Virus record (IMG/VR): IMGVR_UViG_3300007522_000026
Span: 1-53,822 of that record
Length of the DNA stretch: 53,822 nt
Strand: one strand, 5' to 3'
DNA from: a virus
Both the position numbers and the translations under genes were made by a program. This document shows, piece after piece, positions 2,647 to 52,503 of this stretch (within the stretch, counting starts at the first letter, position 1; each line of letters opens with the position of its first letter). The notes below the pieces were generated by a model, which was not told where the DNA came from, ran no database searches, and worked only from the letters and a program-made list of their open reading frames with translations.

Positions 2647-2776
2647 TATACTATCCGACGATAAATGGGATCAAGATATGTTAGAAGATGAAAGTCAAGA
2701 GCAACTGGCTTATGAAGAGCTGGACCGTAAAGTAATCACAGATAAAAACAACAATACAACAGAAAGCATCAAATAA
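2639..2776 (+). CDS. small acidic protein between rIIA and rIIB
   Basis: A 45-residue acidic product rich in Asp, Glu and Gln. It starts 8 bases inside the end of the rIIA-like gene, and its stop abuts the rIIB ATG (TAAATG). This overlap geometry is the same as between undoubted genes in this arm, which argues that it is translated. No family is recognised. Confidence 0.55.
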   Translation: MYDILSDDKWDQDMLEDESQEQLAYEELDRKVITDKNNNTTESIK

Positions 2777-3892
2777 ATGAGCTATCCAATTATCCTTTCA
2801 GAAAACACGCTATCAGTAGTTATCGACAATAAAGTATATCAAGCAGATCGCAGCCACCCCGCATGGGAGGAAATTAAAGCTGCAATCAACGATGACTCAA
2901 CAACAAACGATGAGCTTATCGGCCTCATGTCCCCAGGAGAATATATCCGAAGCACCTTACAGGATTCTTCGACAACTTACATCGACATTCGTGGAGGTAT
3001 ACTATACTATGGTGATGAGCCAGTGCATTCTACACTTGGACTCAAGGTAATCGACATGATCCGAGAAGGATTCGAGATTGACCCGTGGGTCAGGTTTGCG
3101 GAAAATGTTTATGCTAATCCGTTCAAGCAATCACGAGACGAATTGTATACTTTCCTTGAGAAAGCCAACCTACCAATCACCGAAGATGGTTGCTTTATCG
3201 CATACAAGAAGGTCAACTCAGACTACAGGGATGTGTTCAGTAACAAGTTTGACAACTCTATTGGTCTAGTGCTAGAGATGCCACGAGAACTTGTAGACGA
3301 TGATCGCAATAGGACCTGTTCTTATGGTTTCCACTTCTGTTCAGAGAGTTATCTGAAAAACTTCGGTGGTAGTCATGTGATGCTCGTCAAAATCAATCCA
3401 CGAGATGTTGTATCTATTCCTAACGATTATGACTTCGCTAAGGGTCGCACCTGTAAGTATGAGGTCATCGGAGAGATTGAAGAGAATGTCATTGCAGACT
3501 ATACTTGGGATGCAGTGTATATGGACGTTGATGATTCTGAAGAATGGTTGGAAGATAATTCCGGCTGGGCTGTGGAATTATTATTTGATTATGAAGATGC
3601 ACTACAAGATATAGTAGAGCAGGTGCAGGGCGAAAAGAATCTCAACAATGAGAAAAATAAGAAAGGTAATTCAGACAATATGCTAACAAAACTAAAGAAG
3701 AGCGTTACAAGGGGTTCTAAGAAGAGCGTTACAATTAGCACAGAACGTCTAGGGACATTGTCACGAAAGCAATTCAAGGCAGCGGTGCGAGAGCATGGTA
3801 CAATGGCAAACTGGGCGAGAGAGCTTGGTGTGCCATCTTCCACTGTTCGTAACTGGCGAGCTGACCTCTGGGCAAGTGTTCCGGAAATCTGA
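2777..3892 (+). CDS. rIIB: rIIB-like protein with C-terminal helix-turn-helix
   Basis: A 371-residue rIIB-type protein. The central part contains the conserved stretch ITEDGCFIAYKKV (about residues 135-147) and a GFHFCSESYL segment, both seen in phage rIIB homologues. A Lys/Ser-rich linker leads to a C-terminal domain that reads as a DNA-binding helix-turn-helix (MANWARELGVPSSTVRNWR). The start directly follows the small upstream gene. It probably acts with the rIIA-like protein. Confidence 0.85.
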   Translation: MSYPIILSENTLSVVIDNKVYQADRSHPAWEEIKAAINDDSTTNDELIGLMSPGEYIRSTLQDSSTTYIDIRGGILYYGDEPVHSTLGLKVIDMIREGFEIDPWVRFAENVYANPFKQSRDELYTFLEKANLPITEDGCFIAYKKVNSDYRDVFSNKFDNSIGLVLEMPRELVDDDRNRTCSYGFHFCSESYLKNFGGSHVMLVKINPRDVVSIPNDYDFAKGRTCKYEVIGEIEENVIADYTWDAVYMDVDDSEEWLEDNSGWAVELLFDYEDALQDIVEQVQGEKNLNNEKNKKGNSDNMLTKLKKSVTRGSKKSVTISTERLGTLSRKQFKAAVREHGTMANWARELGVPSSTVRNWRADLWASVPEI

Positions 3893-13885: not shown

Positions 13886-14962
13886 ATGGCTAAAAGAATT
13901 TATGAAAATAATACAGTATTAGAAGCAGCTAGAGAAAGAATGTCTTTCATATTTGATGAGTTTGAACGTGTACAAGTTTCAGTATCAGGTGGTAAAGATA
14001 GTACTGTACTGTACCATCTGGCCCTACAGGAAGCCATCCTTAGAGGTAGAAAGCTAGAGGTATTCTGGTTAGATCAAGAGGCAGAATATACAGCCTCAGT
14101 GGATACTGTGAAGCTACAGATGCAACATGAGAACGTAATACCACTGTGGTATCAGGTTCCGGTCTACATGACTAACGCAACAAGCTATTCAAACTACTTC
14201 CTATACGCTTGGGGTAAGGGCGAGCAATGGATGCGTGAGAAAGACCCTATGGCTATTCAAAGCATAGAAGAAGATTATCCTGAAAGATTCTACGAGTTCT
14301 TCCCCTATCTAGAAGAGCAAAATAAAGATGCAGCTTTCCTTGTTGGACTAAGGGCAGAAGAAGGTATCATGAGATACCGAGCCGTTACTAAGAACCCTGG
14401 GTATAAAAATACATACTGGGCAACCACAACCAATGGCGCACACAAGTTCTATCCAATCTATGACTGGGGTTGGAATGATGTGTGGAAATTTGTTTGGGAT
14501 TATAATATTACTTATAACAATATTTATGATAAGATGTTCTGGTCCAACTACAGCATGTATAGTATGCGTGTATCAAACCTTGTTCATGAAAAAAGCTATA
14601 AGTGTCTCATAGATTTACCAAAGTTTGAACCAGAAACATACGATGCATTATGTAAACGGATAGGCGGTATCTCAACTGCTTCAAGGTATGCGAGTGAGAA
14701 GTTAATATTTAGTAATAAGACTTTGCCTTCACATTATGAGAACTGGGAAGAGTTTAGAAACTTCTTGTTTGATAATATCCAAGAAGAAGATCATAAAATA
14801 ATATTTGAGAAGAGATTCTCATCTCAACCTAACGATGAAGAAACATATAAAAAACAGGTAGGACAGTTACTGCTCAATGATTGGGAGAATTCAAAACCAA
14901 TCGCAGCTATAGACATGGAAAGAAAGGAAGAGTTTAAATCAAGATGGATGACAATCTTATAA
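13886..14962 (+). CDS. PAPS-reductase-like PP-loop ATPase (IbrA-like)
   Basis: A 358-residue PP-loop protein. VSVSGGKDST (residues 31-40) is the pyrophosphate-binding loop. LEVFWLDQEAEY and GLRAEEGIMRYR match the phosphoadenosine-phosphosulfate reductase superfamily region that contacts the adenylate. The C-terminal half is unlike true CysH and resembles the IbrA/DUF3440-type branch. Assimilatory sulfate reduction is unlikely: the partner is a ParB-like gene, the two overlap by 19 bases, and the CysH active-site C-terminal ECG(I/L)H is not seen. The likely role is nucleotide-dependent regulation or modification. Confidence 0.78.
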   Translation: MAKRIYENNTVLEAARERMSFIFDEFERVQVSVSGGKDSTVLYHLALQEAILRGRKLEVFWLDQEAEYTASVDTVKLQMQHENVIPLWYQVPVYMTNATSYSNYFLYAWGKGEQWMREKDPMAIQSIEEDYPERFYEFFPYLEEQNKDAAFLVGLRAEEGIMRYRAVTKNPGYKNTYWATTTNGAHKFYPIYDWGWNDVWKFVWDYNITYNNIYDKMFWSNYSMYSMRVSNLVHEKSYKCLIDLPKFEPETYDALCKRIGGISTASRYASEKLIFSNKTLPSHYENWEEFRNFLFDNIQEEDHKIIFEKRFSSQPNDEETYKKQVGQLLLNDWENSKPIAAIDMERKEEFKSRWMTIL

Positions 14963-17220: not shown

Positions 17221-17303
17221 GGAAGCGTGAGAGAGTGGACAATTCTAGCAGGCTGTAAACCTGCCGCCCTTAGGCTACGCAAGTTCGAATCTTGCCGCTT
17301 CCA
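17221..17303 (+). tRNA. tRNA-Tyr (GTA anticodon)
   Basis: An 83-base class II tRNA. Acceptor stem GGAAGCG/CGCTTCC, anticodon stem GCAGG/CCTGC around loop CTGTAAA (anticodon GTA), long variable arm CGCCCTTAGGCTAC, T stem GCAAG/CTTGC with loop TTCGAAT, discriminator A. CCA is not encoded (the DNA reads ACCC). Confidence 0.95.
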
Positions 17304-17325
17304 CCCAATTAACTAGGAGAAAATA

Positions 17326-33639: not shown

Positions 33640-36600
33640 TCAAATAGCTACAATAATAAGTGTATCAGAAACAGAAGTTTGATCAATATTACCACCACTT
33701 AAAGTTACCTTGAGTGCACCGCTACCAGTAGAACTAGCAATACCTTTAATTTTAAAAGTGTAATTCTTAATTGAATTATTGACACCAATGTTTGGTATAG
33801 AAATATATTCATTCACAGGAGCAATTTCAGAGTTGAATATTAGACTGCTACCATCATAGATTTCAATATAAACATAAGATCCAAGAGGAGCAGTTAAAGT
33901 ATTAGTAGTCAATTTGCAATTACCCACTAAAGAGTAAAGCTGTAGAGTCCCATTAAATATCCAACTAGCAGCATTCAGAGCATTAGGTGAAATAAACTCT
34001 TCATTAGAAGGCCAGAATACTATACTGCCACTAGAGACTGAATTAAATAGTATCTCAGGAGAACCAGCAGTACCGCCATCTAAAGAAACAATCAGGGGTG
34101 CTGTATTAATCTCATCAATAGCAGCAAGGTGAGTGCCCCAAGTCGAATCACTATAATCACCATGTAAAGCGATACCATCATAGCCATCAGAATTAGTAAT
34201 AAAGTAATTTAAAGAAGTAATATCTGTGACATCACAACTTGGACCGTAAACCATAATATTATCATTCCAAGCTTTAATAGCAGCATAAACAATATTATAG
34301 AAATTCACATAGTCATCAATCGTATCAAAGTCATAAAGGTTCTTCCAAACTATAACACGATCAGGGTAATAAACAGCATCACCAATACCAGTAACTGGAT
34401 CAATATCACTAGGAGGGAAAATTGTTTGATCAGATAGAATAGCAACGTATGCATCAGCCAACTCACTATACTTAATCGGGTCAGGTGATTCATTACCACC
34501 ACCAACCTGATAGTATGTCGGACAATAACCAAGAGTCATCGTAATGCTCTTGCTGGCCAAACTAGCTAAAGCAAAAGCTGAAGCTAATGAAGTTGCACCG
34601 CCCAAAGCCCATCCTATACCATTACCGTACAGCATAAGATTAACATGTAAAGTATTATCTATATCACCAGTACCAGCAGCACCCAAAGTTTTTGGCTCTA
34701 TACCAAATATAGAAGACCTAGGAAGAGTTTCCGATATTGAATCAAACTCTCCTCTCATAATAGCAAATCTTTCCGTAGAACCTGCCGCAGCAGTAGCAAG
34801 ACCCCTAGACGTTACAGACTGCCATGAATCAACTCTTTCGGATATCGTTACATAAGGATAAGGTGAATTAATTTGTGGGCTATTAGAAATAACCCAATTG
34901 CTTGCATCGCCCAACCAATGTGTTGTCAAATCGTAAGTCCATTCACCGCTATCAAGATTCATTTTAGAATCAACTGCCGTAACCCTATGAATATAAGTTT
35001 CATTAGTATTGCGTTCAATAATTCTAATCTGGTCATCAATAGTTATACAAGGGTTGGCTACACAACTAACTGAACCATTACGCTGTGCAAACCAGGCATG
35101 AATACCGATTAGCTCAGCCATGAGTTGTGCTTCTTCATTATTTTGGAAAAGAGCGGAAACCCACATGGCAGGTTTTTCTATACCTCTAAGTTTCTTTATA
35201 CCAGGCGAAACATATTCATTAGCAACAGGAGGTATGTGTCTAACGTAACCAGTACGAGAAGCATCCTTGGGGTCAGGTAAATCTGTTCCTATAATAATTT
35301 CTGTTCTATCATCGCTACCAGATAGTGTTGCATTATAGCTAAACATGTCAACTGATTCATGTATAACGGGAATAAAAGGTGTAGGTAAAATACTAGTATT
35401 AATAGTTGTTTTAGTATCCCAAACTTTATTAAACCCAGTACCCAAAACTGGATAATAGATAGCTAGATTTCTATCATTTTGTAAACGCAACTGTGAACCA
35501 GGGTACATATAGGTACCAGAGTTCCAAATAGCAACCTTTGAAGCCCAAAGGCCTTTATAGATCACAAGGTTACCATCTGCTTGCATAACAGCATAAGCGC
35601 CAGAATTTCCCCATGTACCAGAATTCCAAATGGGACCAGAAGCAGCAGGAAAATATCTGCCCCAAGTTGTAGCCCCAGCATACATAACAAGGTTACCATC
35701 TGCTTGCATAACTAAGGTTGTGCCATTACAAGATATTTGACTACCCACACGAGTGCCAGCGCCAGATACAACACTTTGTGAAAGATACTGCCCACTAGTA
35801 AGAACTGCGCTAGCAGGTGGCGATCCAATACTAGGTGAGTAATCTTCAGCTACTCTAGTATAGCCACCACTATCATCATATGAAACATAAATAGGTAGAC
35901 CATTCTCATCGAAGTTACCAGCCTGCCACCAGTTAGGGCTAGCAAATTTAAATAATCCTTCTTCAGTAACATAAGCGTTATAACCAACTACTGTAGCAAG
36001 TTCTTTAATAACATCTATAATAGTTTTTTTATCAAACTTTTCACCGGATACTATAGAATCAGTTCTGATAGCAGTACCTTCAAGCATACCATAAACTTCA
36101 GGATCATCAGAACCATTAATACTGGGATTATATAAAGTAAAACCAGACCAAAGAAGCACATCTTTAACAATTTCAGTCCAGTCACCATTGAAATTACCAT
36201 CATGCCAACGGTAACCTGTTTTCCCAGTCCAACCGGGTGAACCCCAAGATTCAGCATTATACTCAAGAACATTACCATTAGCTATAAGAACCCAAAAGCC
36301 TGTACCATCAGGGTCTGGTGCAATGTCCCATACTAGTTGACGGAATAAATAGGTATCTCTAGTTTCTTCAACAACATAACCCTCTTGAGGTTTAAGGTAA
36401 ACATCCTGATTAACGTTTACAGGGCCTTGACCCACAGCATCACCAAAGGAAGCAATATTACCTGTAGGAAAAGTTATCCAATAGCCTTTACCGGTTTTTG
36501 TGCATCGAATAGACCTAGTGTATTCAGTCTTGCTCATATGGAACTGACTTGCCATACCAGCATTATATGTTCTGTTTACTAAACCACCATAATTTTTTGC

Positions 36601-38592
36601 TGCACCATAAGCAAATACTTCACCGGATGAAGTAACTGCCCAGAAACCATGCGCACTAGGATGTGCTTGTACTGAGCCACCATGCATATAATAATAATTT
36701 TGTGGTGGTGTTTGGCTAGCGATAATCCAGTTTCTTGTTGCTGTTTCCGGTAAATCTGTTCTTGTTTTCAATCCGCCACCAGGCCACCTGTCCATACCAT
36801 AAGCTGCATCACCAAAAGCATAAATAGTACCATCACCATAAATAACATAATAGCCTTGACCAGTATGTGTTGCTGAAATAGTCTTAGCAAAATTAGCATT
36901 AATTTCAAATAAACGATTACTACGAACAGGCCAACGGATAACGTGTTGAGTTTCGCCACCAGCACCACCTTCATACAAGCTCGCTGAGCCATAAGCCCAA
37001 ACATGCCCCATCCAATCAAGAACCCAATAACCCTTACCGTCTGGATGAGCCGTTATACTTGCAGCCTGATTTCTACCATAAGGCCACGGAGAATGCTGTC
37101 CGATGCTATCAAACAAACTAGGGCTTTCTAACGGTACTGAACCAAACGCTGTGGAATCATAATAAGAAGCGTCACCAAAACCATATACGTTACCAAAAGT
37201 ATCAAGAACCCAATAACCCCTAACAGGATGAGGCGCAATAGAATGAGTCAAAGGCAGGTCATCAAAGTTATCAATAGAATATTCACTAACAGAAGCGCCA
37301 ACACGATAAGCAACAATATCTCGTATACCAGCACGATACTGATTGCCATAAACTCCCTGAATACCAGAATAGTAGAGTCTAGTAAAGTAAACTCTGATAA
37401 TTAAAGCTCCAGGATTACCAGCAGCACCATACTCGCGAGGTAATTGTATTTCCATAGCAGAAATATCTACCTCACGACCATCTGGAATAGCTTGAGGAAT
37501 ATTAACTTTACTCACATAATGTATACCACCAGAATTTGGAATAGTCTCAGTGCCTTGATAGACACCATTTTCAGCCACTGCAATATAACACTCATAACCA
37601 CCAGCCCAAGGAGTTAAATTAATAGAAGATACACCTCCAGCGTTATTAGCTGGAACAGTAAACTGAAACCAAACTGTACCAGAGTTAGTTGAAGCATAAG
37701 CTTCAGATAAAGAGAACGTAGAAGGGTTACCATCATTAGAATAAGAGTTGCCATGCGCACTTCTTGTACTGTCAGAATCACCAGAAGAAGTTGAAGTAAC
37801 AAGCCTTACCTCTCCCTTGCTGGCAGGAGAAACCCCTGTACCTCCAGCCTTAGGACCCCAAATGGAATCAAAAGCACTCTTACCGGCAGGATAATACTCT
37901 AACGGGTAAAGGCCACCGGGAATAACTGGTGGGAAAACAATTTGATCTAAAAGGATTCTGCCAATATCTCTACAAGTTAAAGTTAACTTACCATCAGAAC
38001 CAGATTGAATGCTATCAATCAACCACAAGCCAGTGATAACAACATTTTCGTTATCAAGATTATCATCAATAGAAGTATAGTTATCCTCAGTGGGATTACC
38101 ACCATAACCCTGATATGTTCTAATCAAAGCATGAGGGATTAAAACATTACTCCAAGAGAAAGATCCATTCCATTCACCATTTTTTTTGAAAGCACCTTGG
38201 CCCGGAGTTTGACTCCATAAGTCCAAATCGCCCTCACCACGTTTAGGCCAAAAATATCCTGGGTAACCAAGTTGACCGTCAAGTTGTTGTTGTGTAGTAT
38301 TTCCCTCATGCCACATGTTATACATAGATATATTACATGTAGCCAAATCTTGCCCCAAGCTACGATTAATATCAATAGAACTAATATTTGGCACCTCATA
38401 CTGATCACTAGAACCATTGGTCGTTTCAAAATATCTGTAAGGACCTCTAATAGAACTGCCATACGAAGGAGTGGTTTGCCTTAAGCTCCATAATGGCTCA
38501 ACAGTAACACGACCATTAATAGCATCTTGACCAATGAAAGATCCAATTTGAGCCTTATCAAAAAAGGAAGTATTAAATTTCAACTTTTTCAC
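33640..38592 (-). CDS. multidomain tail-tip protein with propeller repeats and lectin domain
   Basis: A 1650-residue protein. Residues 60-220 and 800-1230 read as a tail hub/tip (Tal-type) backbone. Residues 450-785 insert six repeats of the form hPdGkGYWVLd..G.v.aFGdA..Y (for example HPVRGYWVLDTFGNVYGFGD), a propeller-like array common in actinobacterial surface proteins. Residues 930-1065 insert a bulb-type mannose-lectin domain with three QxDxNLVxY-type sites (MQADGNLVMY, MQADGNLVIY, LQNDRNLAIY). Residues about 1290-1560 look like a degenerate TIM-barrel glycosidase (VIVWKNLYDFDTIDDYVNFY, then VYGPS). A beta-sandwich ends the protein. Likely the host-recognition tip. GTG start with GGAAG; an AAAGGAG site fits the upstream ATG of a 9-codon frame. 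Confidence 0.8.
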   Translation of the reverse strand: MKKLKFNTSFFDKAQIGSFIGQDAINGRVTVEPLWSLRQTTPSYGSSIRGPYRYFETTNGSSDQYEVPNISSIDINRSLGQDLATCNISMYNMWHEGNTTQQQLDGQLGYPGYFWPKRGEGDLDLWSQTPGQGAFKKNGEWNGSFSWSNVLIPHALIRTYQGYGGNPTEDNYTSIDDNLDNENVVITGLWLIDSIQSGSDGKLTLTCRDIGRILLDQIVFPPVIPGGLYPLEYYPAGKSAFDSIWGPKAGGTGVSPASKGEVRLVTSTSSGDSDSTRSAHGNSYSNDGNPSTFSLSEAYASTNSGTVWFQFTVPANNAGGVSSINLTPWAGGYECYIAVAENGVYQGTETIPNSGGIHYVSKVNIPQAIPDGREVDISAMEIQLPREYGAAGNPGALIIRVYFTRLYYSGIQGVYGNQYRAGIRDIVAYRVGASVSEYSIDNFDDLPLTHSIAPHPVRGYWVLDTFGNVYGFGDASYYDSTAFGSVPLESPSLFDSIGQHSPWPYGRNQAASITAHPDGKGYWVLDWMGHVWAYGSASLYEGGAGGETQHVIRWPVRSNRLFEINANFAKTISATHTGQGYYVIYGDGTIYAFGDAAYGMDRWPGGGLKTRTDLPETATRNWIIASQTPPQNYYYMHGGSVQAHPSAHGFWAVTSSGEVFAYGAAKNYGGLVNRTYNAGMASQFHMSKTEYTRSIRCTKTGKGYWITFPTGNIASFGDAVGQGPVNVNQDVYLKPQEGYVVEETRDTYLFRQLVWDIAPDPDGTGFWVLIANGNVLEYNAESWGSPGWTGKTGYRWHDGNFNGDWTEIVKDVLLWSGFTLYNPSINGSDDPEVYGMLEGTAIRTDSIVSGEKFDKKTIIDVIKELATVVGYNAYVTEEGLFKFASPNWWQAGNFDENGLPIYVSYDDSGGYTRVAEDYSPSIGSPPASAVLTSGQYLSQSVVSGAGTRVGSQISCNGTTLVMQADGNLVMYAGATTWGRYFPAASGPIWNSGTWGNSGAYAVMQADGNLVIYKGLWASKVAIWNSGTYMYPGSQLRLQNDRNLAIYYPVLGTGFNKVWDTKTTINTSILPTPFIPVIHESVDMFSYNATLSGSDDRTEIIIGTDLPDPKDASRTGYVRHIPPVANEYVSPGIKKLRGIEKPAMWVSALFQNNEEAQLMAELIGIHAWFAQRNGSVSCVANPCITIDDQIRIIERNTNETYIHRVTAVDSKMNLDSGEWTYDLTTHWLGDASNWVISNSPQINSPYPYVTISERVDSWQSVTSRGLATAAAGSTERFAIMRGEFDSISETLPRSSIFGIEPKTLGAAGTGDIDNTLHVNLMLYGNGIGWALGGATSLASAFALASLASKSITMTLGYCPTYYQVGGGNESPDPIKYSELADAYVAILSDQTIFPPSDIDPVTGIGDAVYYPDRVIVWKNLYDFDTIDDYVNFYNIVYAAIKAWNDNIMVYGPSCDVTDITSLNYFITNSDGYDGIALHGDYSDSTWGTHLAAIDEINTAPLIVSLDGGTAGSPEILFNSVSSGSIVFWPSNEEFISPNALNAASWIFNGTLQLYSLVGNCKLTTNTLTAPLGSYVYIEIYDGSSLIFNSEIAPVNEYISIPNIGVNNSIKNYTFKIKGIASSTGSGALKVTLSGGNIDQTSVSDTLIIVAI

Positions 38593-38661: not shown

Positions 38662-39435
38662 CTATCCTGCATTTGATTGAATAATTATAAGATCCGCTAT
38701 CAAACTAGCTCTAGTATCAGAATCAAACTCGCCTGTAATAGTTAGACTAGATATATCCTGATATTCCGAAACAGCATCATTGGTTGCAATGTCATATTTC
38801 CCATCTAATGTAAGTTTTGCACCAATAATAAGATTTAAAGATCTTTGTAAAATGATAGTATACCAAGAATATTCGCTTGAATCATTCAGATCAGGTAAAA
38901 CTCTCACACTTGGCAAAAGTTCGCTTGCCTGATATTTCCTTAATACTCCAACAGAAGCCGAACTCCCCACATTTGTTAAAGTATTGCCCCAATCTAATGA
39001 TTTAGCTTCAGCCTGATATTCCATATGCCAAGGAAACTCTACTGAACGAGTTCTTTTAGGTGAAAATGATGTTAGGTAAACCCAATTTTTTTGACCCAAA
39101 TCATCTACTATCAAAATTTGTTTACTTTCATTGCACCATAATACCATAATATTATATTGTGATTCCGTAAGAATTGTCCCAGAGAATGACATTGATTGAA
39201 CTTCTGGTCTACCCTCATACTGAACAATTTTACCTGTAGCGGTCGGTTTAGAAGTAATCTTTTTTTGTATAGATGGCATAGAAGCATCAATAGGATTAAT
39301 AGCCATCTCATATATTTGTGAAAGTGAATAATCAATAAACTGCCAAGGAACTCTTATGGCAGCAATTTCTGTTGGTACAGTTATTCCTTCACCAAATAGT
39401 TCTTCACCAAATAAGAATTGACCAAATTTAGCCAT
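38662..39435 (-). CDS. Dit-like tail protein with peptidoglycan-binding domain
   Basis: A 257-residue protein. The first 165 residues resemble a distal-tail component (QSMSFSGTILTESQYN ... RTRSVEFPWHMEYQAEA). The last 80 residues match a PG_binding_1-type helical domain (LQRSLNLIIGAKLTLDGKYD ... LTITGEFDSDTRASL). It starts directly after the collagen-like gene. The 40.66 kb gene is a shorter paralogue without the cell-wall-binding part. Confidence 0.65.
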   Translation of the reverse strand: MAKFGQFLFGEELFGEGITVPTEIAAIRVPWQFIDYSLSQIYEMAINPIDASMPSIQKKITSKPTATGKIVQYEGRPEVQSMSFSGTILTESQYNIMVLWCNESKQILIVDDLGQKNWVYLTSFSPKRTRSVEFPWHMEYQAEAKSLDWGNTLTNVGSSASVGVLRKYQASELLPSVRVLPDLNDSSEYSWYTIILQRSLNLIIGAKLTLDGKYDIATNDAVSEYQDISSLTITGEFDSDTRASLIADLIIIQSNAG

Positions 39436-40647
39436 TTAGACAATAATCCATTCATATGGTGATGGTGTAGCAGCACCATCAGAAACAGAAATAAGTAGAA
39501 GTTTTAGAACATCATACTGTGATGATAAAGTTTGATTTGAGTATGAACCATTAATTGTTTGAGTAGCATTCGGTGTAATAGTAACAGCGTTAGCACTAGC
39601 ATCAGTTTTTATATATGTTATAACTCTACCAATGTAAGAAGTGCCAAGCGAACTAATGTCTGGTAAAGTTCTGGTAATTACACCAGAACTTGCGTCACAT
39701 ACAGTATAACCTAAAAGGTTACCAAAATTTGATACTGCTATATCTGTATCTGTATCTGAAACATTTGAAATATATGTTGACATTGAATTAGAGTTACGGA
39801 AATAATCCACACCACCCAAAATAGTCCAACCATTAGTAGCACCTTGATATACCATACCGTAGCCTGCGCCGAAATCTCCAGATGGTAACAAGAGATAATT
39901 GTTCAATACAGCAATTGAACTAGTGCCATATACTTGTACAGTATCCCTTACCCATACTCCAGCTGTTAAAGTGTATGTTCCAATATTTTCTGGAACAGGA
40001 GCATAACTTCCATCAGTATAGATAGCACAAAGAAGTGTTTCGCCGTTAAACGCAGAGTTAGATTTTAATATACCATTCGGAGTAACATACAAATAATATT
40101 CATTACCGAACGTAAGGCCCATAAAAGCCGCTATAAGAGCCGTACCAGGGCCAATAAACCCAATATGGTCAACAGCAATACCAGGGTTCGTAGATGGCCC
40201 TGTAGAGCCAGCAGGGCCAGTGGAGCCAGCAGGGCCAGTAGGGCCAGCACCAGTAGGGCCAGTTGGTCCCGTAGAGCCAGCACCTGGACCAATTGAACCC
40301 TGCACACCGGCAGAACCAGTAGGACCAGCAGGACCAGTAGCGCCAAGAGCACCCTGAGGGCCAGTAGCACCAGAAGCAGTAATTATAACATTCAAAACTC
40401 CGGTAGAGTCATTATAAGTAATAGTAGCACCAGTAGTAGTACCGCCAGAAAACATTAAACCCACAGTATCTTGAATAATCTCAGTAACAGAACTAGTAGT
40501 AACAAGAGCAGCAGAACTTGTTATACCATGAATGTTAAGAGATTTTGCCTCATGAGCCTGAACAGCAGTAATAATATCATTAGTGATAGATGCAATAACA
40601 GAATCAACGTTATCAGTATACGGGAAACCCGTAGGTGGCCATGCCAT
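39436..40647 (-). CDS. collagen-like tail-fibre protein
   Basis: A 403-residue protein: an N-terminal anchoring region (1-90), a Gly-X-Y collagen-like stretch (about 93-156; [19 protein letters not shown]), then a globular C-terminal domain with beta-strand pattern. Collagen stretches trimerise phage fibres. It lies between the two Dit-like paralogues. Confidence 0.75.
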
Positions 40648-40659
40648 TGTTAAACTCCT

Positions 40660-41073
40660 TTAAACCTCTGCCAGTATAAGACCGGCAATTTTGTACGAAT
40701 GCTTCCAAGGAAAATTTCTACTTCTCACACGACTAGTAGAAAAAGTTTCTATATAAATTAAAAATGTTCTAAACAAATCATCAGTCATCTCAATAGGATA
40801 AGGCAAAGATGACCACCTCTCCATATCTTTATACTGCTCTTTACTATAAATCAAACCCGAATAATCAAACTTCATTTGCTCATTAGGTTGAGCAAAAATT
40901 ACGTTACTACCAATATGGACTATACCTGATGTATCGACATAGTTAGAAACCGAAGCAGAATAACCCATAGTCTTATTTATGGCATTACTACCATTATCAG
41001 AATTAGGATTAACAGGAAAAATATATGTCTCACCCTCTATACTATCATAAAAACTCCATGCCTTACGAGCCAT
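40660..41073 (-). CDS. short Dit-like tail protein
   Basis: A 137-residue protein that parallels the tail protein at 38.66 kb: SKEQYKDMERW with TESQYNIMVLW, and SRVRSRNFPWKHSYKIAG with RTRSVEFPWHMEYQAE. It follows the tape measure, the usual place for a distal-tail protein. ATG at 41073 is chosen over an adjacent TTG because GAGGAGG precedes it by five bases. Confidence 0.65.
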   Translation of the reverse strand: MARKAWSFYDSIEGETYIFPVNPNSDNGSNAINKTMGYSASVSNYVDTSGIVHIGSNVIFAQPNEQMKFDYSGLIYSKEQYKDMERWSSLPYPIEMTDDLFRTFLIYIETFSTSRVRSRNFPWKHSYKIAGLILAEV

Positions 41074-41083
41074 CAATACCTCC

Positions 41084-44000
41084 TCAGTACCTGCGTGGGC
41101 CCGACCCAGAACGTCCAGTGCCTAAAGCTTGAGAAAGAACCTCAACCACTTCAGACTCTCCCATACCATTATTAACATAAATTTTAATATCTTGTGTTCT
41201 ATTATCCTGATAACCAATACCAGCCCTACCAGCAGCATCCCTAGTCTGAGAAACCTGGTCAAGCCTACGAACCTCATAAAGAGTAGGCAAAGCAAGACTT
41301 GTAGGAAGATTCTGCTGAAGATCTGAACCAATATCATTTTTCAACTGTTTAATAGTTAACTCAAGATCCTTAAACTGTTTAGTCCCAGGAATAAGAGTAG
41401 TTTTCAAACCCTCAAGATAATTAGCATACTGGCTCTTTGTGATCTGACCCATATCAAGCAAGAATTTGTAATCATCCATCTTATCACTAAAGACAGCATC
41501 ACGAGCAGCTTTATCAGCACTAATAGTAGCAGCCCTCGCCTGATTAATTGCAGCAACACCAGCACCAGCAGCAATAGTGTCAGCAAGCTGTTGCCTAGTA
41601 GACTGTGCCGCAACCTGTGCCGCACCAACCTCATCACCCATAGCAGTAAGTTCAGCTTGACGTAAATCAAACTGACTAATACGAGCAGCATTCATAGCGT
41701 CAGTAAGTTCTTTCTGAATCTCTATAACTCTCCTTGCGGCATCAGCCTGTGCAGCAATACCACGAGCTTCAGTAGCCTGCTGTTTGGCCAATACAAGACT
41801 AATATTTGCTTGAGCTATGGGATCATTCTTTGCGATAATGGCAGAGAAAAGCGCAAACTGTGCCTCGCGTTGAATATTATTTGCATCCTCAAGAGCTTTT
41901 TGAGCAGATATAAGACTTGATTGAGCAGCAGCAAGTTCGCTAACATTAGTAGCATTAGCCACAGCTTCTTGAGCTGCTATAACATTAGTTTCTGCTGAAG
42001 CAACAATATCACCATTAAAGGTTTGCATGGCAGCAAATAGTCCAAACTGCGCTTGACGTTCAGCTTGCAAATTCTTTATAGCTTCCTTTTTTGTTGCCTC
42101 ATCAGCAGCGATTGTTGCCGCATTAGCAGCGTCTTTAGCATCTTTAGCAAAAGTATCCAAACCTAAAGCCTGGAAAATTGTTTCTATAACTAAAGTAATA
42201 TTTGCTAAAGCAGCTTCTTCAGCTGGAGTTCTAACACTAGCACTGGGGGCAGGCCCCGCAGTAACAGTTTTGGCCGGTTTAGCAGACCTTCTGTTCGTAG
42301 GTCTAGGGTCAGGAAGCCCCAAAGCAGCAGCATCTTTTGAAGTAATGGCTTGTTTAGATTCATAATCAACTACCTTACCTGGAGTGGAAAACATGCCAGA
42401 AGTCCGACCCGTTTGCATGGACTGCTTGCTTATTATTTCCCACTTTCTTGATTTTGCATTATACCTATAAAGAACACCATTAATCATCCTCTCAAGACCA
42501 TTCTTAGGGTCTTTCAAATTACCAGGAGTAGGAATGTCAGGTGCAGCAATAAAATCTACTGGGTTCAGCGAAGGAGCAAGATCGGCTGGATCTGTGCCAG
42601 CCGGAGCCAAAGTAGATAATCTTGCCTTCTCAATAGCAAGTACATTCATTTTTTCAATCAGCTGATCCCTACCCTGTTTGACGGTTATCTGACCGCTGTC
42701 AATCTGATTAAGAATTGACTCAAGGAACATATCAGCAGTTTCACCACTAATAGCCAAGAACGCTAAATTGAATGCCTCATAGCTTCCAGTTAGCTGCTGA
42801 AGCGAAGACTTCAACAAACCAAGCTGAGCAGACACAGGTATATCAATCCTAGAATTAGCAATATCAACAGCTTGTTGAGCAGTATAAGCATTCTTAATTC
42901 TAGTATCCATAATAGATTTTTGAATATCAACATACTCCAAAGCCAACTCACCCGCAAGATCAGCAGAAATGTTATCAGTACCAAGACCAGAAACAATAGA
43001 TTTAAGAATCTGCTGTTGCCTTTTAATATCATTATTGCCACTAAAGCTTTGACTTCTCTTCGCAATAGAAATCTGAGAACTGACAGTTTTGCTAACTTCT
43101 TCTGAAACAGTTTTTTGAGCTTCTCTTAATGTGGCTAAGAATTTATCGTCAACAGAGCCACCCTTTTTAACAACATCTTTAAAGTTTTCTATTTGAATTA
43201 AATAACCTTTAATAAATTGATTTCTAGAAATTCCACCAGAATCCAATAAGCTTTTAAGTTCCGTCAATGTAGCATCTGCCTTAACACTAGCAGCTTTACC
43301 AAATATCTTTTGATATTCAACTTCAATTAATTGATTAATATCCCCTTGACTTGCGCCTCCAGCTTGCCGACTTTCAAAGTTTTTTATAATATTATTAGCT
43401 AACTGTATCGTACCTTTATCATCAACTCGGTCTCCCTTTTTACCATCCTTACCAATTAACAAACCTGTATCAGCAATTGATGTTACTTGTTGTATAAAAT
43501 CTTGACGATCTTGTAAAGCTAGCTTTACAATCTGACCAGTAAGTTCCGATGGGTCATTCAATCCAAGAAAATCTGCAAGTTTTTTAAGATATGCTTTTTC
43601 TTCTTTGTCAAAGCTCGTACTAATAGTATTGCGATTCAGAATTTTAGTGTCGCCAGATTTTTCAAAATCTTTTACGCCATCATTATTTCTGTTTCCAGAA
43701 ACTGCAATAAGTTCTTTAATTTTAAATTCAAAATCACCAGTTGGTTTCCCAAGCTCAGGTTTAAATGTATTTATATTATAAGCAAGATTTCCACTTTTTA
43801 ATAATTTAATTGCTAAAGCCTTTTGAGGACTAACTGATAATTCATTAATTTGATCTTGGATTAACTGTGCTTCACTAGATGGAGCATCGCCGAAAATACC
43901 TTTAGCACCAGAAACCAGTTGAGATACAATACCTTCTTTACTTTTTGCTTTTCTCTTTAGTTCTTTTAATACATCAATTCTAGTTTCTTTTGCCGCAGCA

Positions 44001-47000
44001 AGTTCGACAGGGTTACCCTTAAAACTTTCTAATATTTTTTTAGTAGCCTCTTGTTCTATTTTAGCAATTTCTTTGGCTTCTTCGGCAAGAGAGTCAGCTT
44101 TTTTGGATAGACCATACCATACTGAAGCAAAAATAGCTGCTACCGCAACACCAGCACCGATACCGACACTACCGCCGCCAATCAGACGCAAGAACCCCGA
44201 ACCCACAGCAGCCCCCCTGCTCGCTGCCGTCGGAGCAGCTAATGTTGCAGTTGCAGCCCCCTTAACTTGAGCTGCACCAGAAAGATTTAGTGCTTCAGTA
44301 TAAGCTACTTCCGCAGCAATCTTAGCCTCTGTTGAAGCCACAACACGCGCATTTGCTTGTATTACTAAAGTATCATTTGCCGCACCAGACGCTTCAGCTA
44401 CCTGCGCTGCTTGTAAAGCTGCAAGATGTTCTACTTCAGCTAAAGCTAATGCTTGTTTAGCAGCTAAAACTGGAGCTGAAGCCGCTGCCCCAGTCACACG
44501 AGTAGCGGTAAGTTGACCCTCTGCAAGAGTTAGGTTTTGTGTAGCTAAACGGTGTGCTTCTTTAGCAGCAGTTGCTTCAACCTCAATCGCAGCCAACGCC
44601 TGACCCGTAATACCCAGCTCAAACGTGGCAGCCATCAAGGCTTGATTCGCAAGAGTTAATCTTTCAGTGGCCGCAGCTTCTGCATTTTTTGCGGCTGTTA
44701 ATCCTGCGCTTGCTCCACCACCCGCAAGACCCCTACCAGCACCACCCGTAAGACCTCTTATAGAAGTCAAAGAACCAGGCAAAAACTTTTTACCCAAACC
44801 ACCAATACCTTTAACTATAAGAGCAAAAGTCAACATAATTCCAGGAAAACCCTGCAATACTTTATTAATACTACCCACTATTTTTAGCGCACCACTCAAA
44901 GAAAAAACCAACCCTTTTGCAGCACCAATCGCAGCCTGCAAACCCGCAGTAAGACCAGAATCAAGAAATTCCATAGCCAAAACATGCATCTGCTGAACCA
45001 AAGCTTTAACTGAAATTGTAAGTGAACTTAGTATCTTCTGATATCTTGTCTCTAGAGAACCAGAAGAGTCTTCAGCCGCTTGAGTAAGCCTTTCCAAAAC
45101 CTCATTATTTGCCAAAGCAGGAATAAGGGCCTGAGCTTCACGCTTACCACCCAAAAGACTAACAACAAATTGTTTAGATTTAGCATTAAGATTTTCGTAC
45201 TCTTTAGCAATAGTAGTTAAAGTTCCCTGTATATCAGAATTATTAACAGCATTAATAAACTCAGGTGTTCTCAAAGCATCAGAAGCAACCGCTAACTCTA
45301 ATAGCTTATCTTTATTCTCTGAAATAGCAGGAATAATTCTACCAAAGTTTTCCGCCAAAGCAGCACCACTCTTACCAGAACGCTGCTGAGCCGTAGCGGC
45401 CAAAGCAGAGAACTCCTCCAAACTAAATCCGGCCTCTTTAGCAACAGGCGCAATATCGCCAATGAAAGCAATAGTCTCACGACCCAACACGCCAGAAGAT
45501 CTTTCCAAAGCAACCGCAACGTTACCAATATCTTCAAATGTTCTACCAAAAGAAAGACTAGCAGCGGTAAGGCCATCAGTAATTTCCTTAGGAGCTAACT
45601 CTGTAGCAATAGCAATTTTGGTAGCAGACTCAACCTGGCTTTTAACAAGCTCCAATCCGCTCTTATTACCAATAGTTTCAGAAGCAAAAGCACCAATAAG
45701 TTGCTGAGTTAGACTAGCAACAATATCCAACTGTAAACCAGTCTCTTTGGAAATGTTTATAATTTCACTTTTAATCTCAGCAAAAGCGGTTTTAGAATCA
45801 GAACCATACTTTGACCAATTAGTAGCATCAACTTGTTCTTGAATCTTATTTAACTCAACCTTAAACTGCTCAGCCTCCACAACAGACTTACTGATCCCAG
45901 AAGCAGCACCGAATAGAGCCATAGAAGGTATAGCATACTTAAGTGAAGTCAAAGCACCAGAACCAAAGAATTTAGAAGCACTCTGATCTTTTTGAGAATT
46001 CAAGCCAAATTTACTAGTAAATCTACCAAACACACCAAGTGGTTTCGTATTGGTATTGGAATCTTCTGCCTTTGCTTGCTTTCTAGAAGCTTTCCTTACA
46101 TCAGAAGCCTCCTGCTTCAGTCGCTGCTCTTGCTGTCCGCGCGGACTCTGAGCATATGATACTTCATCACGAGCTTTTTCCAAAGAAGTCTTAGGCGGGA
46201 TCTTTTCTGCTTTAGCTGCTGCTTTATCTGCTGCTTTATTTGCTCTATCTTGTTCTTGCTCTATTTTTTGTTGACTTGAAATTCTACCTTTTGCATTATT
46301 GATTTGATCATCAAGTACTTGTGCTCCCTTTTTCTTACCAAGTATTATAGCATTTAATTTTCCTTCTTCTAATGTCTTAACCAATGATTCGTTTTTAGCA
46401 ATTATCTCTTTTTCACTAATACCTTCTAATTTGTCAGTTGCTCTTTTGGCTCTTGCGTTAGCATTACGGTAATTCTTATTTACGCTTTCAATATTAGCAT
46501 CTTTAGGAACAGTCCCAGCCAGCTTTGCTTTTTCAAGTCTACTAAGTTGCCCTGTTGCAAAATCAGTCTTTGCTCTTTGTTTTACAGCAGCTTGTCCTTC
46601 TGGAGATTTAGCAATCGCATCTCTGCTTTGAGCTGCGTTCAAATCTCTAGCTGGCGCTTCCGCAACTCTTGCTGCCGCAGTTTGCCTAGACTTTAAAGCT
46701 CTAATTTGATCACCAGCAGCAGCTTCCAGCCTTTTATCACCCAATATTTTTGCATTTGCTTTAATAATTTCATACTCTTGCAATAACTGTTTTTCTGCAG
46801 CTACCAACTGCTCCCCACTAAGAGTAGCTAATCCTTGTTCTAATTGTTGCGCCTTATCTTGCGCTGCAACAATATTTGGTCCAACAGATTGAATTGGAAT
46901 ACCAGCGGCAACAGCTCTTTGTTCTTGACTTCCTTGTTTTTTAATATCCTGAGTGCCTACAAATCTCGCATCTCTAACAACTCCAAGAGCAAGATTTGCC

Positions 47001-47773
47001 GCATATCGTTCTTTTAGACTTTTTATTTCTACATCTAATTTTTGTATTTCCTCACTAGTAGCTAAAGTTTGTTCTACTTCTAAAAGAGATTTTCTTCTAA
47101 GTATAAGTTCTTTTTCAAGAACTCTTTCTGTTTCTTGAATCTTTTTAATACCACCGCCAGCGCTAATAGCGCCAGTAGCGCCCGAACTAGCCAATGGTGG
47201 TTCAGGCGCAGGCTTAGGTCTATTACTTATTAATATATCATCCCTAGTTCCAGTAGATCTAAGTATAGGTGCTGCTTTTTTTTGAAATAAAGCAGGAATT
47301 TTACTTGGCTCCACACCTTCAGTAGAAACGCTACGCAAGGTTTGTGCAAACGTATCATCATAAAGTTTTTGTTCACGTGGACTAAGATTACCGACTCTAC
47401 CAATTCTTTTAGCAACTGCAGTCTTTGATCCAGTTTTTAAAGCATCCAAATCAGATTTTAATACTTTACCTTCTTTACTGGTAGAAACTCTATCAGTTGT
47501 TCTACCAGAAGCTAGCTGTCTATTTAATTTAATTCCTTTTTCAGTTAAAGCATTTAATGTTGCTTGTTTTTCAATCTCAGCATCTTTTGCACTTTTTGTT
47601 AATGATGTTTTTTCTTTTGTATCAAGTAATTTCTTTTGAGCAGTTGCTGGCAAAGAAACTTGTTTTTTGCTAGCCTTAGGAACGTTAAATTTATTAGTTA
47701 ATTTTTCAATCTCTAAAAGCTTTTGTTTGATATCAGATATATCAAGACCAACTTTTATAATTGGATTAGCCAT
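41084..47773 (-). CDS. tail tape measure protein
   Basis: A 2229-residue protein, the longest in the window. Its first 600 residues are Lys/Glu/Ala/Gln-rich coiled coil. A TP901-type tape measure core follows (ELAPKEITDGLTAASLSFGR ... IGDIAPVAKEAGFSLEEFSA), then hydrophobic segments (FPGIMLTFALIVKGIGGLG; GIGAGVAVAAIFASVWYG) and another long Ala/Gln-rich coil. At about 1.5 Å per residue the tail would be some 330 nm if no part is cleaved. RBS AGGGGG four bases before ATG. Confidence 0.93.
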   Translation of the reverse strand: MANPIIKVGLDISDIKQKLLEIEKLTNKFNVPKASKKQVSLPATAQKKLLDTKEKTSLTKSAKDAEIEKQATLNALTEKGIKLNRQLASGRTTDRVSTSKEGKVLKSDLDALKTGSKTAVAKRIGRVGNLSPREQKLYDDTFAQTLRSVSTEGVEPSKIPALFQKKAAPILRSTGTRDDILISNRPKPAPEPPLASSGATGAISAGGGIKKIQETERVLEKELILRRKSLLEVEQTLATSEEIQKLDVEIKSLKERYAANLALGVVRDARFVGTQDIKKQGSQEQRAVAAGIPIQSVGPNIVAAQDKAQQLEQGLATLSGEQLVAAEKQLLQEYEIIKANAKILGDKRLEAAAGDQIRALKSRQTAAARVAEAPARDLNAAQSRDAIAKSPEGQAAVKQRAKTDFATGQLSRLEKAKLAGTVPKDANIESVNKNYRNANARAKRATDKLEGISEKEIIAKNESLVKTLEEGKLNAIILGKKKGAQVLDDQINNAKGRISSQQKIEQEQDRANKAADKAAAKAEKIPPKTSLEKARDEVSYAQSPRGQQEQRLKQEASDVRKASRKQAKAEDSNTNTKPLGVFGRFTSKFGLNSQKDQSASKFFGSGALTSLKYAIPSMALFGAASGISKSVVEAEQFKVELNKIQEQVDATNWSKYGSDSKTAFAEIKSEIINISKETGLQLDIVASLTQQLIGAFASETIGNKSGLELVKSQVESATKIAIATELAPKEITDGLTAASLSFGRTFEDIGNVAVALERSSGVLGRETIAFIGDIAPVAKEAGFSLEEFSALAATAQQRSGKSGAALAENFGRIIPAISENKDKLLELAVASDALRTPEFINAVNNSDIQGTLTTIAKEYENLNAKSKQFVVSLLGGKREAQALIPALANNEVLERLTQAAEDSSGSLETRYQKILSSLTISVKALVQQMHVLAMEFLDSGLTAGLQAAIGAAKGLVFSLSGALKIVGSINKVLQGFPGIMLTFALIVKGIGGLGKKFLPGSLTSIRGLTGGAGRGLAGGGASAGLTAAKNAEAAATERLTLANQALMAATFELGITGQALAAIEVEATAAKEAHRLATQNLTLAEGQLTATRVTGAAASAPVLAAKQALALAEVEHLAALQAAQVAEASGAANDTLVIQANARVVASTEAKIAAEVAYTEALNLSGAAQVKGAATATLAAPTAASRGAAVGSGFLRLIGGGSVGIGAGVAVAAIFASVWYGLSKKADSLAEEAKEIAKIEQEATKKILESFKGNPVELAAAKETRIDVLKELKRKAKSKEGIVSQLVSGAKGIFGDAPSSEAQLIQDQINELSVSPQKALAIKLLKSGNLAYNINTFKPELGKPTGDFEFKIKELIAVSGNRNNDGVKDFEKSGDTKILNRNTISTSFDKEEKAYLKKLADFLGLNDPSELTGQIVKLALQDRQDFIQQVTSIADTGLLIGKDGKKGDRVDDKGTIQLANNIIKNFESRQAGGASQGDINQLIEVEYQKIFGKAASVKADATLTELKSLLDSGGISRNQFIKGYLIQIENFKDVVKKGGSVDDKFLATLREAQKTVSEEVSKTVSSQISIAKRSQSFSGNNDIKRQQQILKSIVSGLGTDNISADLAGELALEYVDIQKSIMDTRIKNAYTAQQAVDIANSRIDIPVSAQLGLLKSSLQQLTGSYEAFNLAFLAISGETADMFLESILNQIDSGQITVKQGRDQLIEKMNVLAIEKARLSTLAPAGTDPADLAPSLNPVDFIAAPDIPTPGNLKDPKNGLERMINGVLYRYNAKSRKWEIISKQSMQTGRTSGMFSTPGKVVDYESKQAITSKDAAALGLPDPRPTNRRSAKPAKTVTAGPAPSASVRTPAEEAALANITLVIETIFQALGLDTFAKDAKDAANAATIAADEATKKEAIKNLQAERQAQFGLFAAMQTFNGDIVASAETNVIAAQEAVANATNVSELAAAQSSLISAQKALEDANNIQREAQFALFSAIIAKNDPIAQANISLVLAKQQATEARGIAAQADAARRVIEIQKELTDAMNAARISQFDLRQAELTAMGDEVGAAQVAAQSTRQQLADTIAAGAGVAAINQARAATISADKAARDAVFSDKMDDYKFLLDMGQITKSQYANYLEGLKTTLIPGTKQFKDLELTIKQLKNDIGSDLQQNLPTSLALPTLYEVRRLDQVSQTRDAAGRAGIGYQDNRTQDIKIYVNNGMGESEVVEVLSQALGTGRSGSGPRRY

Positions 47774-51639: not shown

Positions 51640-52503
51640 TTATCTTGTAAGCCAAAACCATGTTACTGGGCCAATGATACCATCTACCTTCATCTGCGAA
51701 TCGTTAAGTTTAAAAAACCTCTTAACATTACGTTGGAAGATGCGGGTTGCGGCCACAGATGCGGGACCGAAGTTTCCATCAACAGCAAGATCAGGTCCGT
51801 CAAGTTTATTATTCAATAATGCTTGCGCCCATTTTGCTGCATCACCCTTCGATCCTTCTTTAACAATTTGAGCCGATGCTGCCTTAATGCCTGCTGCAAT
51901 AGCTGAAAGATCAACAGAATCAGGTTGTGCTGGTTGTGGAATAATCGGAGCTACTTGACCTTCATGCCATTGGCGGCAAAACTCTGCTGTAAGAATTCTC
52001 ATGTCTGCACCAGAAACTGTGTGCATATCAATTTTGCGTGATGTATATTCTTTATGCATACAGCATTCAGGTACTCTACTAGCGTCATAACCGATAAGTG
52101 CTGCTGTTGCTTTAGCAATTACAAACAGCTGATCTAATCGCCACGGTTCGGTGGAATTGTAACCAGTGTTCTCTATTTCAATGCCATACATTGTACTATT
52201 ACCACGATTTGTAACCCCACGCCATGCTCCTGTACCAGCATGATTTGCTTTACCAGAAGCGATCACAATACAAATATTTGAACGTGTCATAAGAACATTA
52301 CATAATGGTCCAGCAAGATCAATACGACCGTCAGTTACAGTACCAAGAGAAGGCGCATCCCTGCCAAGACCTGAAGCAGTATGATGCCACATAACACCAT
52401 TAGGTGTAAAGCCATCTGATTTACCACGAGTCTGCCATCCTGGTTGCTCTTTAACAACAAGACCAGCTTCTCTTAATCTATCTGCAATTCCTAAGTCTCT
52501 CAT
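51640..52503 (-). CDS. N-acetylmuramoyl-L-alanine amidase (endolysin)
   Basis: A 287-residue lysin. The N-terminal amidase_2 domain has MWHHTASG (zinc-binding His near residue 41), NHAGTGAWRG, YGIEIENTGY (conserved Glu) and CMHKEYTSRKIDMH (second His and Asp). A Pro/Gln linker leads to a PG_binding_1-type domain (GDAAKWAQALLNNKLDG ... VDGIIGPVTWFWL). It cuts the amide bond between MurNAc and the stem peptide. GGGAG lies seven bases before ATG. Confidence 0.92.
   Translation of the reverse strand: MRDLGIADRLREAGLVVKEQPGWQTRGKSDGFTPNGVMWHHTASGLGRDAPSLGTVTDGRIDLAGPLCNVLMTRSNICIVIASGKANHAGTGAWRGVTNRGNSTMYGIEIENTGYNSTEPWRLDQLFVIAKATAALIGYDASRVPECCMHKEYTSRKIDMHTVSGADMRILTAEFCRQWHEGQVAPIIPQPAQPDSVDLSAIAAGIKAASAQIVKEGSKGDAAKWAQALLNNKLDGPDLAVDGNFGPASVAATRIFQRNVKRFFKLNDSQMKVDGIIGPVTWFWLTR

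Follow-up and report, generated by a model that had tools for sequence, protein, structure and literature searches.

Tail hubs are usually viewed as a conserved core, with host range credited to the fibers. The window analyzed here, a stretch of viral DNA of 53,822 nucleotides, contains a long gene that raises the question of whether a hub may itself carry the modules that grip a host cell. An earlier note on this DNA had placed a tail tip with three inserted sugar- or surface-binding modules at 33915–37245, which corresponds to residues 450–1559 of a 1650-residue protein. We consider it probable that this protein is a tail hub (gp27/Tal/megatron-type) bearing exchangeable modules for surface adhesion, from a long-tailed phage that is probably lytic. 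The module anatomy of the hub is well supported. From sequence and fold comparison, the lectin and the propeller are identified firmly and the barrel moderately.

The Hub Scaffold

The modular tail hub (P0001; 1650 amino acids) is encoded at 33640–38592 on the minus strand, as are all of its parts described below, begins with GTG, and is recognized by its relatives and its hub fold. The open reading frame is a single frame without internal stops. An alignment-based search reached six hub relatives, and later more; 11 were compared. Scans of IMG/VR for close relatives with the single hub protein or with the propeller alone found none.

The scaffold comprises three backbone pieces, conserved and in register across all 11 relatives: an N-terminal part of residues 1–222 (37927–38592), kept in 11 of 11 with E values of 1e-25 to 1e-82, a middle part of residues 796–914 (35851–36207), and a C-terminal part of residues 1071–1285 (34738–35382). 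The last of these ends at a GEF junction, which is also the end point of the L004 hub (L004 and L005 are the same protein). Between the first two lies a β domain at residues 235–430 (37303–37890), with strands at pLDDT 70–84 and a putative jelly-roll-like fold. It is found in the 747-residue hub L008 and was undetected in hubs L048, L049, and L053. The earlier note did not mention this domain, nor the C-terminal β sandwich and the peptidoglycan-binding domain of a neighboring protein described below.

The AlphaFold2 (AF2) model of residues 31–1230 has a mean pLDDT of 51, falling to about 25 in the lectin part. In fold searches its hub part matches the PVC and AlgoCIS spike hubs (9qgm, 7aef) at E of about 1e-5, and it also resembles many viral gpD, gpP, and XkdQ-type proteins. 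The hub sequence matched none of the PHROG hub families, and Pfam and NCBIfam searches with the whole 1650-residue protein recovered the lectin alone. The gene sits after the tape measure and Dit-like genes, and L009, L003, and L004 keep the order tape measure, small tail proteins, hub, small protein. By fold and gene order, the protein has the scaffold of a tail hub of the gp27 type, and by analogy with that family it would be trimeric.

The Six-Bladed Propeller

The first insert, residues 440–795 (36208–37275), consists of six GYW..G.V..FGDA repeats that begin at residues 459, 521, 580, 649, 703, and 765. The six GYWVLD/FGDA repeats counted in the earlier note are therefore real: in 5,000 shuffles of the hub protein, the repeat pattern was never matched more than twice. 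With a repeat-unit profile derived from 205 units, six copies are detected in the window hub; the other repeat-bearing phage hubs have 6 or 12, except for L007, in which five profile copies are joined by a divergent sixth visible by eye. The bacterial proteins scanned have mostly six copies; in a few the count is one off because of truncation or weak, spurious matches. Because 6 or 12 is what closure demands, copies in sixes point to a closed six-bladed propeller.

Structural comparison leads to the same fold. A profile from the hub alignment matches the HERC2 and RCC1 propellers (1.7e-5), and nearly all top PDB matches found by Foldseek for the AF2 model of residues 31–1230 are propellers (8e-7 and up), with the blade strands reaching pLDDT 75–85 within a whole model of low confidence. 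Against Pfam, no model exceeds its cut-off for the window propeller (RCC1_2, E 0.14). A closed six-bladed β propeller of RCC1/WD40-like type is thus well supported.

Bacterial carriers of the repeat (L010–L045) are mostly Acidimicrobiia and other Actinomycetota. In most of the six scanned for domains, a subtilase domain or domains of Ig-like, TIG, or PKD type are present. Carrier L010 attains the RCC1_2 cut-off, and most others scanned fit no Pfam repeat model. No propeller relative was found in plasmids. Among the phage hubs, the propeller is missing from L008 and L052, whereas in L048, L049, and L053 it replaces the jelly-roll-like domain and is doubled in two of the three.

These distributions bear on a reading in which propeller and barrel serve chiefly a structural or protective purpose, as spacers or for stability, and host recognition falls to the 797-residue or collagen-like tail proteins. 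Of the inserts in the clade, the propeller is the one most stably kept; it contains no known sugar site, and further candidate receptor binders adjoin the hub. However, absence, doubling, and relocation in relatives are variation typical of adhesins, not of core parts, and bacterial proteins that bear Ig-like domains or a protease domain contain the propeller as well; we regard a mainly structural role as rather unlikely.

The B-Lectin Module

The second insert, residues about 925–1070 (35383–35820), belongs firmly to the B-lectin (bulb-type mannose lectin) family, as identified by phmmer, by profile, and by three sugar motifs. Sites I (QADGNLVMY, residues 963–971; 35680–35706) and II (QADGNLVIY, residues 1004–1012; 35557–35583) match QxDxNxVxY exactly, and in site III (QNDRNLAIY, residues 1038–1046; 35455–35481) Ala replaces Val. 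The bulb-type lectin with three binding sites proposed from the first reading is borne out by both the family matches and the motifs, with this one substitution in the third. At least one such motif arises in 0.08% of 5,000 shuffles.

In a phmmer search of the PDB every match is a lectin, with SCAfet at 9e-8 and 4oit at 1e-6. The lectin part scores 5e-17 against the putidacin family, below a cut-off that is set for the whole bacteriocin, and Pfam PF01453 gives E 0.012, also under its cut-off. A profile of the window, L004, and L006 lectins reaches pyocin L2 at 7e-21. The L004 and L006 lectins each keep one of three sites intact.

No other relative has a lectin at the loop used in the window, after residue 914. 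The L004, L005, and L006 lectins occupy a different hub loop, after the residue matching about 824. Transposition of one lectin between the two loops is disfavored: the window lectin is closer to that of L064, from a viral contig (1e-20), than to that of L004 (2e-12), and no lectin is present in L009 or L003, the hubs that cluster with the window in the backbone tree. Two acquisitions are thus likelier, and from these sequence relationships the lectin was probably gained twice in the hub lineage. An imperfect 20-nt direct repeat flanks the lectin (35377–35396 and 35815–35834); it is weak, with 11 of 400 random segment pairs equaling it.

B-lectins occur at 125 viral loci (L064–L141). Four of the proteins were checked: two are minor tail proteins of gpL-like type, and one is gpJ-like.

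The GH39-like Barrel and the C-Terminal Domain

The third module, residues about 1286–1536 (33985–34737), is a (β/α) barrel, moderately identified as GH39-like by a fold match and a weak sequence match. It was modeled with a mean pLDDT of 52, and below 50 in its first half. The six best PDB matches of this model in Foldseek are all GH39 (2.4e-6 to 8.1e-5). Pfam GH39 matches the barrel with E=0.24, which is not significant. A two-barrel profile, made from the window and from the gene that follows the L004 hub, ranks the GH39 xylosidase 1px8 best of 177,635 PDB sequences, likewise without significance (E=0.26). The profile aligns to 1px8 in register at the WNE motif, and this alignment puts WKN of the window (residues 1416–1418; 34339–34347), within VWKNLY at residues 1415–1420, at the acid/base position. 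Of the GH39-type barrel with VWKNLY in place of WNE that had been proposed, the motif stands; the fold match comes from a poor model, and the sequence match is weak.

The earlier note had suggested a barrel recycled for binding, a view against which intact catalytic acids would speak. The acid/base Glu of GH39 is missing from both barrels, with WKN in the window and WND in L004. The presumed nucleophile stretch, PLIVSLDGG, is also without Glu and differs in the L004 barrel; its placement on strand 7 is uncertain, given a weak model and two sequences. A few residues in two sequences thus suggest that catalysis may have been lost. Sugar binding by the barrel, as against its being a remnant, is a guess. 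No relatives of the two-barrel pair were found in viral contigs, and separate searches of phages with the window barrel region and with the L004 barrel gene returned none.

Alternatively, the barrel could be catalytically active as a hydrolase through other residues, and the tip would then both cut and bind. In L003 this slot is occupied by a GDSL hydrolase showing the expected GDS, GAND, and DxxH motifs, and it can therefore house an enzyme, and the L004 barrel retains an Asp at the acid/base place. Against this stand WKN in the window versus WNE in 1px8 and the lack of Glu in the poorly placed and variable nucleophile stretch. An active enzyme in the window is, in our assessment, improbable.

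The barrel is placed between the hub and a C-terminal β sandwich (residues 1537–1650; 33643–33984; pLDDT 72–83). L009 and L003 share this last domain, and the gene that follows the L004 hub matches it weakly.

Relatives as a Natural Dissection

The compared hubs show the scaffold with its sites empty or differently filled. The L008 hub has neither propeller, lectin, nor barrel. L009, the closest relative (49% in the best segment), has the propeller, but its lectin and barrel sites are empty, and the hub backbone passes directly into the shared C-terminal sandwich. In L003 (6001–10701) the barrel slot holds a GDSL esterase (5.7e-17) with the motifs GDS, GAND, and DQIH. The gene after the L004 hub encodes a barrel and the window-type C-terminal domain (5e-7 for both, 9e-4 for the domain alone). 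The GX15bay hub has an additional propeller at its C terminus. In the backbone tree the window, L009, and L003 are grouped (0.99/100), and L004 and L006 form the next clade.

Comparison with relatives thus confirms that the propeller and lectin interrupt the hub backbone, and both were recovered; failure to find a propeller or lectin fold, the outcome that would have counted against the first reading, was not encountered. As read from these alignments, modules are gained or lost at defined hub sites that are empty or otherwise filled in relatives. Binding-type modules inserted in a tip scaffold yet absent from relatives are what distinguishes an evolved Dit/Tal-type protein, and this is the pattern found here.

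It is scarcely credible that the multi-module reading frame is a chimeric assembly or an annotation artifact: the exact module set is unique to this record and the closest relative lacks lectin and barrel, but the frame is single and stop-free, GC stays at 0.32–0.42 with no jump at the modules, the flanking genes are co-linear with relatives, and every module type is seen in independent relatives.

The L009 contig (RXKC01000023.1) lies in a Saccharibacteria metagenome-assembled genome, with phage genes around the hub; a binning error is possible. A Saccharibacteria host derived from it was not accepted, the hub being present in one of 295 genomes of the order. The other nine genomes of the order with a match have the propeller alone.

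A Model for the Tail Tip

In the reading that we favor, that of a hub loaded with adhesion modules, the conserved three-piece backbone carries the propeller after the jelly-roll-like domain, the lectin in a loop, and the barrel before the sandwich. The hub trimer would close the tail tube, with the modules pointing outward. The lectin is predicted to bind mannose-type or similar host-surface glycans and, in a trimer, could offer up to nine sugar sites per tip. The propeller would recognize a glycan or protein of the cell surface; the barrel may act as a catalytically dead carbohydrate binder. Many weak glycan contacts would then keep the tip attached to the cell up to the opening of the tube. 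We infer multivalent sugar-reading by the tip, as the first reading had suggested, with recognizable sugar sites in the lectin alone.

It is also quite possible, though we advance it tentatively, that the hub is a platform with at least three sites filled independently, and that the six-bladed repeats represent an undescribed surface-recognition class of phages and Actinomycetota. The interchangeable fillings would then be the propeller, a B-lectin in either of two loops, a GH39-like pseudo-enzyme, a GDSL esterase, or nothing. The tip resembles a test bed for new host-cell grips, and with relatives whose modules are missing, swapped, or relocated one can ask directly which host each module determines. 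The repeat family itself is a testable, nameless propeller domain of phages and bacterial proteins.

Comparison with Known Tail-Tip Proteins

Inserted binding modules at the tail tip are of a known kind; a hub with several cassette sites and this module set is new, and the literature searched held no description of the combination. Evolved Dit and Tal proteins of Gram-positive siphophages have carbohydrate-binding modules inserted in tail-tip scaffolds (PMC7291167), among them the Dit of J-1 (PMC6115969). They likewise place modules in loops of the tip scaffold that vary among close relatives, but in the window it is the hub that serves as scaffold, and what it carries is a six-bladed propeller, a B-lectin, and a GH39-like barrel. 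The megatron of roseophage R4C has a mannanase-like peripheral domain with a carbohydrate-binding domain inserted in it (PMC10276861), and the hub and megatron of R4C and RcGTA are similar to the window protein in that a tail-tip protein bears a glycosidase-like domain. In contrast, no sequence relation to them was found, and the sections of that report drawn on here describe neither a propeller nor a B-lectin (PMC10276861).

Phage adhesin propellers are known with five to seven blades, examples being phi11 gp45 (five blades), PRD1 P2, and phiKZ gp131C (PMC6115969). All share with the window a propeller at the attachment structure; those are separate receptor-binding or peripheral proteins, whereas here a six-bladed RCC1-like unit, shared with Actinomycetota proteins, is inserted in the hub. 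The window lectin shares its sequence family and the three QxDxNxVxY sites with the monocot lectins, pyocins L1 and L2, and putidacin L1, but is a single B-lectin domain within a tail hub, with Ala for Val in site III. The GH39 β-xylosidases 1px8 and 2bfg are the best fold match to the barrel, and in both cases barrel is followed by β sandwich; the window barrel differs in lacking the acid/base Glu, and the sequence similarity is not significant. The GX15bay hub (QBQ74878; Caudovirales), annotated as "glycoside hydrolase family 25", is homologous, with a propeller at the same site, but has neither lectin nor GH39-like barrel and ends in its second propeller. For mycobacteriophage Douge, glycan binding has been measured for many virion domains (PMC13033339).

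Neighboring Genes

The protein encoded at 38662–39435 (minus strand), termed Dit-like from its position, contains a PG_binding_1 domain at its residues 197–245 (Pfam, 2.4e-5), in line with a cell-wall target. Its L009 homolog is 149 residues long and has no PG_binding_1. A 2229-residue protein at 41084–47773 (minus strand) is the probable tape measure, judged by position and length; its homologs precede the hub in relatives.

The small tail proteins encoded at 38662–39435 and 40660–41076 look paralogous, both matching the same relatives' proteins, and flank the gene for a collagen-like tail protein (39436–40647) with G-X-Y repeats, whose length varies between relatives. Adjacent RIIA and RIIB homologs at 688–3892 suggest a lytic phage. 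Elsewhere, the window encodes a PAPS reductase-like auxiliary gene (13886–14962), a single tRNA gene, for tRNA-Tyr (17221–17305), and an endolysin with an amidase_2 and a peptidoglycan-binding domain (51640–52503).
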